Source: Treponema sp. (GTDB lineage Bacteria > Spirochaetota > Spirochaetia > Treponematales > Breznakiellaceae). From it: DNA of 23,289 bases. Of the stretch, positions 1 to 17,285 are shown in pieces. The notes beneath the pieces are model-generated. The model did no database searches, was not told where the DNA came from, and saw nothing but the letters and a program-made list of their open reading frames with translations. The translations under genes and the position numbers were made by a program. The stretch spans positions 1 to 23,289 of the forward strand of contig JAISBR010000185.1 of the NCBI GenBank assembly GCA_031266095.1, in the 5' to 3' direction. Position 1 is the first letter of the stretch; every line of letters starts with the position of its first letter.

Positions 1-931
1 GGGAGATACCCCCCTCATGCGGCCCCGCAGGTTTATTGAGCTTGCGGGAATTGAGGGAGCCGATCTTCTCCTCAAACTGGAGTCCTTTAACCCCCTTTCC
101 AGCGTGAAGGACCGCATCGCCAGGGCTATGGTCGAAGACGCCGAGGCCAGGGGCCTTTTGAAGGCCGGGACGGTACTCATCGAGCCCACCTCGGGCAATA
201 CGGGGATCGGCCTTGCCTTTGTGGCGGCGGCCAGGGGATACCGCCTCATCCTCACCATGCCCGATACCATGAGCATTGAGCGGCGGCAGTTGCTTTTGGC
301 CCTGGGCGCGGAACTGGTGCTGACCCCCGGCGCACTGGGCATGAAGGGGGCGGTGAACAAGGCCCTGGAACTCAACGCTCAGATCAAAGGAAGCCTGGTA
401 CTCCAGCAGTTCTCCAATCCCGCCAATCCGGAAATCCACCGGAAAACCACGGGGCCCGAAATTTGGGAGGCCACGGACGGCAGGGTGGACATCCTGGTGG
501 CAGGGGTGGGTACGGGCGGAACCATCACCGGCGCGGCGGCTTTCCTCAAGGAGAAGAAGGCCGGGGTACAAGCGGTGGCGGTAGAACCCGATGCGTCGCC
601 GGTACTGTCGGGAGGTAAACCCGGGCCGCATCAGATACAGGGCATTGGAGCGGGTTTTGTGCCTGACGTGCTCGACCTTTCGATTGTTGACGAGGTCTTC
701 CGGGTGCGGAACGAGGAGGCGGTGGATACTGCCAGGGTGCTTGCCCGGGAGGAGGGCCTTTTGGCGGGTATATCGTCGGGGGCCGCCGCTTTTGCCGCAG
801 CGAAAGTTGCAGCCAGAACCGAAAACAGGGGTAAGACCATCGTGGCCATTCTTCCTGATACCGGCGAACGCTATCTTTCGACGGTATTGTGGAAAGATAT
901 TCCCAAAACAAAAAGTCCCATCTGGCATTAA
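1..931 (+). CDS. cysK: Cysteine synthase (O-acetylserine sulfhydrylase), 5'-truncated by the window edge
   Basis: PLP-dependent enzyme that makes cysteine from O-acetylserine and sulfide in the cytoplasm. The reading frame is open from base 2 and reads GDTPLM before the first ATG at 17, matching the family's N-terminal 'GNTPL' motif, so the true start lies left of the window and the ATG at 17 is internal. Visible hallmarks are NPLSSVKDR (the lysine that binds PLP), TSGNTG (substrate and PLP phosphate loop), GTGGTITG (phosphate loop) and a C-terminal SSGAAA. About 309 residues are present, close to full length. Its stop overlaps the AAAGGAGG ribosome binding site of the next gene, only 14 bases away, so it shares an operon with the nitrogenase-like subunits. 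That suggests it assimilates sulfide produced by this cluster (inference). A cystathionine beta-synthase-type or O-acetylhomoserine-using relative cannot be fully excluded. Confidence 0.93.
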   Translation, partial: GDTPLMRPRRFIELAGIEGADLLLKLESFNPLSSVKDRIARAMVEDAEARGLLKAGTVLIEPTSGNTGIGLAFVAAARGYRLILTMPDTMSIERRQLLLALGAELVLTPGALGMKGAVNKALELNAQIKGSLVLQQFSNPANPEIHRKTTGPEIWEATDGRVDILVAGVGTGGTITGAAAFLKEKKAGVQAVAVEPDASPVLSGGKPGPHQIQGIGAGFVPDVLDLSIVDEVFRVRNEEAVDTARVLAREEGLLAGISSGAAAFAAAKVAARTENRGKTIVAILPDTGERYLSTVLWKDIPKTKSPIWH

Positions 932-945
932 AGGAGGAACCAACT

Positions 946-2286
946 GTGAGTACGATTGTTGACAGGCCCCGGTACGTATGCGCCCTGGGCGGCGCTCTGG
1001 CGCTGATGAGGGCCATGCACCGGACCATACCCATTGTGCACGCCGGCGCGGGCTGCGCGTACAACTACTACATAGGGGGCAATGCCGGTGCGGGTTATTG
1101 GGGAGGCGGCTACTGCGGCGCGGTGTCTACGCCTTCTACCAACGTGTCGGAAAGGGAAATAATCTTCGGCGGCGAGAGCCGTCTTGAAGAGCAGATACGC
1201 ACCACGGCGGAACTCATTGACGGCGACCTCTACGTTGTTATTTCGGGCTGTCAGGTTGAAATGATCGGCGACGATATACGCATGGTGGCGGATAATGTTG
1301 AGGGACTGTCCGCGCCGATTCTGGCAGTACAGACCCCAAGCTTCAAGGGTAATTCCCAGCAGGGCTATGACCTCCTTTTGGAAAAGCTGGTACGGAAATT
1401 CATTGCCAAGACCGGTACCAAACGCCAAAAGGCGGTTAATGTTTTCGGCGTAATTCCCGGAAACGATCCCTTTTACAAGGGCAACTTAAAGGAGATAAAG
1501 CGGGTTCTTTCTCTCATTGGCGTCGATGCCAACACCTTTATCGGCGAAGGGGAGAACCTCGATAGTTTTCGTAGCGCCGGAAGCGCCGAACTCAACATCG
1601 TACTTTCCGATGTCTACGCTCCCCTCTCGGCGGAGGCGTTTAAGGAAGTACATGGAATTCCCTATATACGGGAGCAGTTTCCCATCGGTTTTTTCCAGAC
1701 AGAACGGTTCCTGCGCAATGTGTGCAAGGCCCTTGGGATAGACGAGGCGCTTGTCAGTAAGGCAGTCAAGGCGGAAGAAGAAATCTATTTTGATTACTTT
1801 GAGCGCATCGCCGACATCTACAACGACATTGAACTCCAGCGTTACGCAGTTGTGGCGGCGGATTCCAATTACGCTCCGGCAGTCTCCAATTTTATTTCCG
1901 ATGAACTGGGCTGGGTTCCCCACCTTACTATGGTGACGGACCCCGTTACCGAAGAAAACAAAGCCGCCCTGGACAGGCGTTTTAAGAATTACGCATCGGG
2001 ACTTGAGCCGAAGGTTTATTACGATACAAGCGCTTCGGCCCTGCGGCATTACCTTACCGAAAGTTGGGAACGGAACCGCAACCATGTCTATTACGAACCG
2101 TTTTCGCCGGCGGTGATATTCGGCAGCGTGTATGAACGGGATTACGCCGAAGAGATGGGCCTTCCCCTGCTTTCAATTTCGTTTCCCGTAACAAACAGGG
2201 TTGTGTTTAATAAAACCTATGCGGGCTTTAACGGCGGCCTTGCCCTGGCTGAAGACAGTTTCGGCCTGCTGGTGGCGGCGCGATAA
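946..2286 (+). CDS. Nitrogenase component 1-like protein, NifK/beta-type subunit (candidate methylthio-alkane reductase MarK-like)
   Basis: Oxidoreductase nitrogenase component 1 family, about 446 residues. The chosen start is GTG 946, preceded at good spacing by AAAGGAGG; an upstream ATG in the same frame (889) would overlap cysK and has no ribosome binding site. Cysteines at 12 (YVCALGGAL), 37 (HAGAGCAYN) and 102 (VISGCQVEMIGDD) align with the three NifK P-cluster cysteines, and the IGDD after Cys102 is the family signature. The C-terminus (GLPLLSISFPVTNR, then YAGFNGGLALAED) resembles the NifK ending. It should pair with the next gene as the beta half of an alpha2beta2 complex. It is clearly not a standard NifK: it lacks the long N-terminal arm and is about 70 residues shorter. 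The specific role (C-S bond reduction) rests on gene context, not on the sequence alone; a NifN-like scaffold is the main alternative. Confidence 0.85.
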   Translation: MSTIVDRPRYVCALGGALALMRAMHRTIPIVHAGAGCAYNYYIGGNAGAGYWGGGYCGAVSTPSTNVSEREIIFGGESRLEEQIRTTAELIDGDLYVVISGCQVEMIGDDIRMVADNVEGLSAPILAVQTPSFKGNSQQGYDLLLEKLVRKFIAKTGTKRQKAVNVFGVIPGNDPFYKGNLKEIKRVLSLIGVDANTFIGEGENLDSFRSAGSAELNIVLSDVYAPLSAEAFKEVHGIPYIREQFPIGFFQTERFLRNVCKALGIDEALVSKAVKAEEEIYFDYFERIADIYNDIELQRYAVVAADSNYAPAVSNFISDELGWVPHLTMVTDPVTEENKAALDRRFKNYASGLEPKVYYDTSASALRHYLTESWERNRNHVYYEPFSPAVIFGSVYERDYAEEMGLPLLSISFPVTNRVVFNKTYAGFNGGLALAEDSFGLLVAAR

Positions 2287-2300
2287 AAAGGAGGATATCT

Positions 2301-17209: not shown

Positions 17210-17220
17210 AATCTTCTCCT

Positions 17221-17239
17221 ATTCCTATAAATATTATCG
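17221..17239. promoter_or_regulatory. Candidate operator copy in the nifH leader
   Basis: ATTCCTATAAATATTATCG on the plus strand matches the core of the palindrome at 11989-12017 (minus strand) at 18 of 19 positions. It lies between the inferred transcription start and the nifH ribosome binding site. The right half (GTAAAA) does not complete the inverted repeat, so it may be a half-conserved site. Regulator unknown. Confidence 0.35.
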
Positions 17240-17255
17240 TAAAAGTATCTTACTA

Positions 17256-17285
17256 AATATATCTTTTTTATATGTTTTTTGTCAA
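17256..17285 (-). promoter_or_regulatory. Sigma70-type promoter of the nifH operon
   Basis: On the minus strand TTGACA (17285-17280) and TATATT (17261-17256) are separated by 18 bases in an AT-rich stretch that stands out from the GC-rich surroundings. Transcription would start near 17249, giving a leader of about 40 bases before the TTG start of nifH. No other good promoter was seen between here and the importer genes. Confidence 0.7.

Follow-up and report, generated by a model that had tools for sequence, protein, structure and literature searches.

A group-IV nitrogenase-like DK pair outside the methylthio-alkane reductases, next to cysK and a corrinoid methyltransferase set in a Treponema contig: a candidate organosulfur-scavenging locus

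The Treponema sp. contig JAISBR010000185.1, of which positions 1 to 23,289 are called the window here, carries genes for nitrogenase-like K and D subunits (together DK), NifH, NifB and the cysteine synthase CysK, for two importers, and for a methyltransferase set with corrinoid protein and RACo-type activase that includes three proteins of the URO-D fold. This locus is probably an anaerobic organosulfur-scavenging module that would pass sulfide to CysK. Its DK pair falls into a group-IV clade that lies apart from methylthio-alkane reductase (MAR), keeps the ligands of the large cluster and differs from MAR in several active-site residues, and in a sister subclade the DK genes are built into the methyltransferase operon itself. 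The general combination of genes is already known; the position of the DK clade apart from MAR, its active-site signature and the spirochaete operon in which DK is embedded were not found in the open-access literature searched, which takes in few subscription journals, nor was any function found there to be assigned to the DK clade. In what follows, L and G numbers denote fetched loci and genomes, A is the DK subclade of the window and B its sister subclade.

Gene content and order of the locus

The genes form two converging units, cysK-K-D on the plus strand (1-3809) and all others on the minus strand, the latter starting at 17209 and running nifH, nifB, importer A, importer B, URO-D1, corrinoid protein, URO-D2, RACo and URO-D3, so that the D gene, ending at 3809, and URO-D3, ending at 3830, leave 20 bp between them. 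A first-pass annotation of the window had described a single operon ending at CysK, which this arrangement on opposite strands contradicts. Its gene inventory was borne out by Pfam and NCBIfam assignments (cysK, two Oxidored_nitro proteins, NifH, NifB, two importer sets, three URO-D proteins, a B12-binding corrinoid protein and RACo domains), as was the juxtaposition of a NifB-type nitrogenase-like set with URO-D, corrinoid and RACo genes, importers and CysK, which is seen again in some relatives. The features are as follows.

2..931, plus: cysK, cysteine synthase A; TIGR01139, 434.6 bits, above the cut-off of 350.95; PF00291; frame open at the left edge of the window
889..2286, plus: nitrogenase-like K subunit; PF00148; best PDB match 9d9u chain C (MAR complex), 242 bits; placed by K tree
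2301..3809, plus: nitrogenase-like D subunit of a non-MAR group-IV clade; PF00148; placed by tree, topology test and active-site residues; model nearest MarD 9fmg
3830..4591, minus: URO-D3, short URO-D-fold protein of 253 aa; PF01208; H-x-C and a third conserved Cys
4595..5767, minus: RACo C-terminal piece, in the other frame; PF14574; AcsV model 207.7 bits, under the cut-off of 800
5377..6234, minus: RACo N-terminal piece, Fer2 and middle region; PF17651, PF00111
6227..7324, minus: URO-D2, MtaA-type corrinoid methyltransferase homologue; NF004889, 340.9 bits (cut-off 244); His-Cys-Cys zinc-ligand residues
7275..7919, minus: corrinoid protein; PF02310 and PF02607; motif GDTHDIG
7945..8985, minus: URO-D1, corrinoid methyltransferase homologue; PF01208; His-Cys-Cys
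9009..9944, minus: importer B permease; PF00528
9941..10789, minus: importer B ATPase; PF00005
10854..11933, minus: importer B binding protein, SsuA/NMT1-like; TIGR01728, 106 bits, below the cut-off of 163.5; best PDB match 2x26, aliphatic sulfonate-binding protein, E 4e-8
12034..13095, minus: importer A binding protein, SsuA/NMT1-like; TIGR01728, 108.9 bits, below the cut-off of 163.5; best PDB match 3qsl, unassigned exported protein, E 2e-12
13138..13926, minus: importer A ATPase; PF00005
14013..15020, minus: importer A permease; PF00528
15013..16317, minus: nifB-like gene with radical SAM and Nitro_FeMo-Co domains; TIGR01290, 376.7 bits (cut-off 343.65); PF04055 and PF02579; CNIQCNYC at residue 39
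16334..17209, minus: nifH-like reductase gene; TIGR01287, 398.9 bits (cut-off 394.35); P-loop, Cys97 and Cys133

Across the D/URO-D3 junction, L001, L002 and L003 keep this convergent order as far as their contigs or flanks extend, as does L005 up to the contig end, so that the layout exceeds what chance would produce. The window D protein shares 95-96% identity with its counterparts in L001-L003, which are Treponema metagenome-assembled genomes (MAGs), and 79% with that of Pillotina sp. SPG140; judging from such relatives, the source spirochaete is probably of termite-gut origin.

Phylogeny and active site of the DK clade

In the careful D tree of 72 rows the window lies inside a 30-row clade (support 99/96; 26 rows labelled A) that adjoins clade B, the joint group comprising 39 rows (97/96). 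The MAR-side group of 31 rows (99/89), within which true MAR forms a clade of 12 rows (100/100), stands apart from this joint group. In the approximately unbiased (AU) test a union of the window with MAR was rejected at p 2e-64 and a union of subclade A with MAR at p 1.6e-56, values that carry the tool's warning that long branches in the set may mislead. A quick K tree is concordant with this placement, and an earlier quick D tree gave the split between window and MAR side support of 93 and 91, unstarred. Heliophilum fasciatum (G253), used in the comparisons as a stand-in for the group IV-A D of E. proavitum, carries at L116 two DK pairs which, when matched by us to the published gene numbers, would place NflDK2 in the clade of the window and NflDK1, the suggested nitrogenase, on the MAR side; NflDK2 has been called of unknown role (PMC9147875). 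The gene order at L116 is nifH-cysK-nifB followed by K-D-URO-D, the DK pair of the latter group being the one that fits NflDK2. A second, MAR-side DK pair also lies near the first in L006, L012, L019, L023, L032, L046, L066, L068, L069 and L075, in several of them with importer genes alongside.

The residues around the cluster were compared using the numbering of R. rubrum MarD, with numbering and residue roles taken from the work on that enzyme, in which Cys270 and His429 bind [Fe8S9C] and Arg428, beside His429, is the suggested hallmark of MAR (PMC12552129). Equivalents of Cys270, His375 and His429 are kept in 76/76 A rows (window included) and 11/11 B rows, so both cluster ligands are present in the window D; the A rows omit L072, L073 and L077, which share the His too, and 13 MAR-side paralogue rows. 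Arg428, present in all 120 MAR rows, is missing throughout A and B, where the alignment has a gap in 76/76 and 11/11 rows; a pairwise alignment puts Met at this position in the window. The position of Trp195 holds Met in 74 of the 76 A rows and in all of the 120 best database matches, and Trp in the 11 B rows; Tyr takes the place of Phe199, and the position of His194 holds Leu, Val or Ile in A, with one Ala. The window itself has Leu, Met and Tyr in place of His194, Trp195 and Phe199, and Cys73-Gln74 of MarD is not conserved in it. Among outlying allies, Val or Asn occurs at 195 in L073, L116, L117, L121 and L122; L117 also has Asn at 375. The positions of nitrogenase NifD Gln191 and His195 are occupied in the window D by Met183 and Tyr187.

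The P-cluster cysteines of D (C54, C79, C146) are invariant in 19 sequences, and three Cys of K align with those of MarK in an alignment judged by eye. An AlphaFold2 (AF2) model of D, whose input alignment contained three MarD rows, has a mean predicted local distance difference test score (pLDDT) of 79.5, with low values at some cluster loops, and its nearest structure is MarD 9fmg with template modelling (TM) scores of 0.81/0.86. With the cluster ligands kept and the active-site residues changed, DK probably holds the same type of cluster as MAR within a different active site. The first-pass annotation had taken DK for a MAR and had named placement outside the MAR clade as grounds against its proposal; outside is where the sequences fall, and together with the AU test and the lost residues this leads us to reject the identification in favour of a separate group-IV clade.

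The methyltransferase set and its linkage to DK

URO-D1 and URO-D2 carry His-Cys-Cys in the window and in 24/24 relatives each. URO-D3 departs from this pattern, having H-x-C with a conserved Cys that lies outside the usual third zinc-ligand position: H191, C193 and C235 are invariant in the 23 proteins aligned out of a family of 31 (window included; E 1e-10; lengths 164-294 aa, the shorter ones perhaps fragments). URO-D3 was also considered as a broken gene, an explanation that is rejected since 253 aa is the usual size, all 15 copies including that of the window measuring 253-286 aa from the first Met. Its AF2 model (pLDDT 87.7) has the methyltransferase MtaA (4ay7) as best PDB match at a TM score of 0.56, and the protein may be a small specialised partner. 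This short URO-D-fold family closes the methyltransferase operon in the window and 14 relatives.

Frequencies of linkage were taken from 78 loci found by D alone and from a survey of 195 genomes, and L079-L098, chosen for containing D, URO-D2 or a corrinoid gene, serve to show arrangement, not frequency; the local tblastn queries were window proteins only, and distant methyltransferases may therefore be missed. K lies directly upstream of D in 77 of the 78 loci. Of the 69 for which 2.6 kb or more of upstream sequence was available, 63 have cysK at most 8 kb from D and 32 have it directly upstream of K. In subclade B, DK is flanked by URO-D1 and the corrinoid gene within a single methyltransferase operon in L079-L084 and L086, with the order importer-URO-D1-D-K-corrinoid-URO-D2-RACo-URO-D3 in L079-L081, the order cysK-nifH-URO-D1-D-K-corrinoid-URO-D2-RACo-URO-D3-nifB on a single strand in L083 and L084, and the same core in L082 and L086 as far as their contig ends. 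The 3.86 Mb contig C1 of G149 carries a B-type DK inside the methyltransferase operon. DK and methyltransferase partners occur together in Acetivibrio (L064, L066), Sporobacter (L096) and an Oscillospiraceae MAG (L074) as well, and in Heliophilum L116 a URO-D gene after K-D is the only methyltransferase-type partner.

Across 195 genomes of one family, searched with cut-offs of E 1e-120 for D and E 1e-60 for URO-D2, D was found in 53, URO-D2 in 27 and both in 17, URO-D2 being present in 17/53 genomes with D vs 10/142 without (Fisher p 2.7e-5). Genomes with some D below 50% identity (43-48%) had URO-D2 in 9 of 14 cases (p 1.1e-6), the division of the 53 into 39 and 14 having been made by hand and the low-identity D of G007, G105, G132, G139 and G191 among the 14 not inspected further. 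A looser search of the ten genomes with URO-D2 and without D recovered more distant or partial D matches in six, namely G076, G126, G127, G142, G151 and G188; the other four, G061, G080, G129 and G147, gave none. In G188, contig C60 (L088) holds a close copy of the leftward unit and contig C238 (L119) a partial D with a URO-D gene. On the MAR side, none of the three true MAR loci (L110-L112, Bacillota) gave a corrinoid or URO-D match, and L114, a non-MAR D locus, lies roughly 5 kb from a URO-D2-like gene.

The module seems to start at nifH, because the DNA upstream of nifH in L089 and L124 has no match to the window genes past it (17447-22438). These include, on the minus strand, an 801 aa radical-SAM open reading frame (ORF; 17447-19852) with weak likeness to PhpK-type and B12-binding radical-SAM methyltransferases and no match listed in the compared loci, and a Penicillin-binding protein 1C-like gene (20120-22438), an ordinary neighbour. 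A scan of the window for tRNA genes and Rfam families at the gathering threshold found none, and the 29 window ORFs scanned yielded no folate methyltransferase.

Proposed function, known systems and alternatives

In the scavenging module that we favour, the SsuA/NMT1-type importers would bring in an organosulfur compound, NifB would provide the [Fe8S9C]-type cluster and NifH would hand electrons to DK, which would break a C-S bond, as its kept cluster ligands, MAR-like fold and neighbours suggest. URO-D1 and URO-D2 would move a methyl group from methylated sulfur, either methanethiol freed by DK or, if they act first, the DK substrate itself, to the corrinoid protein, RACo would keep the latter active, and CysK would trap the sulfide as cysteine. 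Since A-type DK and cysK often occur without a methyltransferase gene nearby, DK of this type may release sulfide by itself, and the methyltransferase set may then be a second arm feeding the same CysK. More tentatively, the clade could be a separate class of C-S reductase, neither MAR nor isethionate reductase (Isr) nor nitrogenase, with Met for Trp in the cysK-linked subclade and sulfide going to CysK, the B subclade being built into the corrinoid methyltransferase operon as one pathway that removes both carbon substituents of a methylated sulfur.

The first-pass annotation had thought the combination undescribed, which does not hold in general form. Kountz and Balskus (2023) described type 1 mlp clusters and, for the non-selenium clade, found MarHDK-like genes inside the clusters or close by, listed CysK in the legend of their Fig. 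7, proposed methyl-sulfur use or methionine salvage, and tied His-Cys-Cys residues, seen here in URO-D1 and URO-D2 and not in URO-D3, to S- or Se-methyltransferases (PMC10418091). The window resembles these non-selenium clusters in its several URO-D genes, corrinoid protein, activase, nitrogenase-like genes and CysK, and differs in that its layout is convergent and leaves DK outside the cluster, in its two importers, in its short URO-D3 and in the non-MAR clade of its DK, the published enzyme being called MarHDK-like and group IV-A (PMC10418091). The two Acetivibrio loci hold D and methyltransferase genes together; taking H. thermocellum as a synonym of A. thermocellus, we treat them as relatives of the H. 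thermocellum case in PMC10418091. A termite spirochaete, Pillotina corrugata, has been reported to carry nifK and nifD with cysteine synthase, and the window shares with it the pairing of cysteine synthase with group-IV genes in such a host; the available text on its operon mentions leucine-rich repeat proteins and no methyltransferase module (PMC13067680). With R. rubrum MarBHDK the window has in common the NifB, H, D and K set, the fold, the P-cluster Cys and Cys270/His429, and it differs in clade, in lacking Arg428, in the changes Trp195 to Met, Phe199 to Tyr and His194 to Leu, and in the adjoining corrinoid genes (PMC12552129).

A number of results weigh against the scavenging module. Only 9 of the 78 loci of the window's subclade, whose flanks do not all reach 6 kb, have methyltransferase-type genes within that distance, as do 7 of the 38 loci whose flanks extend 6 kb in either direction; among the nine, L034 counts by a 40% corrinoid match only and L075 and L076 by a single URO-D of 30-31%. 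The corrinoid gene of L074 lies toward a B-type DK, and the methyltransferase genes of L066 are just past 6 kb. The close relatives L004, L011 and L018 (D identity 91-93%) have no methyltransferase genes in their available flanks. In genomes with only D of at least 50% identity the association is weak (URO-D2 in 8/39 vs 10/142, p 0.029), and all co-occurrence p values are optimistic because related genomes are not independent. Within B the embedded layout is not universal, the corrinoid gene being on the opposite strand in L085 and L096, and L098 being URO-D1-D-K with no corrinoid gene seen. A cysK-like gene lies near two of the three true MAR loci, so that CysK is no specific evidence that DK makes sulfide. 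The window copy of RACo is frameshifted, whether really or through sequencing, since it occupies two overlapping frames where a single open frame is present in 18 of 19 relatives with matches to both pieces (exception L064). Sulfite reductase-type domains, found in 10 of 22 genomes including G003, mean that organosulfur need not be the sole sulfur source, and the three nearest genomes, of which G001 and G002 have selD and G003 has selB above the respective cut-off and none has both, leave room for a methyl-selenium role. The DK-corrinoid link expected by the first-pass annotation is real but uneven, being seen in some relatives, in B operons and in the genome counts and not within 6 kb in most loci of the window's own subclade.

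A possible, though unlikely, alternative is that two separate systems meet in the window by chance, with cysK-K-D, nifH, nifB and importer A forming a stand-alone C-S reductase of the kind found in most relatives and the URO-D, corrinoid and RACo genes with importer B demethylating methyl-sulfur or methyl-selenium compounds. Many loci of the window's subclade have cysK and an importer with no methyltransferase gene found, the two parts are on different contigs in G008, G013, G014 and G015, all of them drafts, and in G188 the 2.8 kb available past URO-D3 of the leftward unit contain nothing that matches cysK-K-D; the embedding of B-subclade DK and the links in Acetivibrio and Heliophilum speak against chance. 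That the methyltransferase set acts on methyl-selenium compounds seems improbable. Such a role has been put forward for the majority of type 1 mlp clusters, more than 90% of which are assigned to selenium, with methyl transfer to selenide reported for an Mlp2 (PMC10418091), and the selD and selB matches of the nearest genomes fit it; neither gene was over cut-off in G149, whose DK lies inside the cluster, G021, G022 or G253, and CysK and DK would suit sulfur better.

A true MAR as in Rhodospirillum rubrum, yielding methanethiol and a hydrocarbon, is distinctly improbable: MAR supplies the best PDB sequence and fold matches and the cluster ligands are kept, but MAR has its fully supported clade, both unions with it are rejected, in a set that contains long branches, and Arg428, His194, Trp195, Phe199 and Cys73-Gln74 are lost. 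Three functions, Cfb, Mar and Isr, have been named for group-IV nitrogenase-like enzymes (PMC11423573). The window resembles IsrBHDK in placing such an enzyme beside sulfonate-type importers, Isr serving sulfur assimilation, and differs in its cluster ligands and B protein, since IsrD is reported to lack equivalents of Cys275 and His442 and two of the three P-cluster Cys, and IsrB to be closest to BciD (PMC11423573). As the window D keeps all three P-cluster Cys, the cofactor Cys and the His at MarD 429 and is partnered by NifB, not by a BciD-like B protein, an isethionate reductase releasing sulfite is rejected as highly improbable. N2 fixation is associated with termite spirochaetes, and NifH and NifB pass nitrogenase family cut-offs, yet the reading of DK as an alternative group IV-A nitrogenase, a role proposed in Endomicrobium proavitum, is likewise rejected and given very little credence, Gln191 and His195 being absent. 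By published gene numbers, the DK of Heliophilum that has been grouped with E. proavitum appears to fit D4683 of L116, on the MAR side and outside the clade of the window, and the name IV-A is in conflict, having been given also to the genes linked to mlp clusters (PMC10418091).

A clade that keeps the ligands of the large cluster and alters the active site would, through its reaction, reveal further [Fe8S9C] chemistry, and its operon form offers a directly testable gene set for the recovery of sulfur by spirochaetes and clostridia under anaerobic conditions. It also calls for caution in surveys of termite-type guts, where nifH- and nifD-like matches need not signify N2 fixation.

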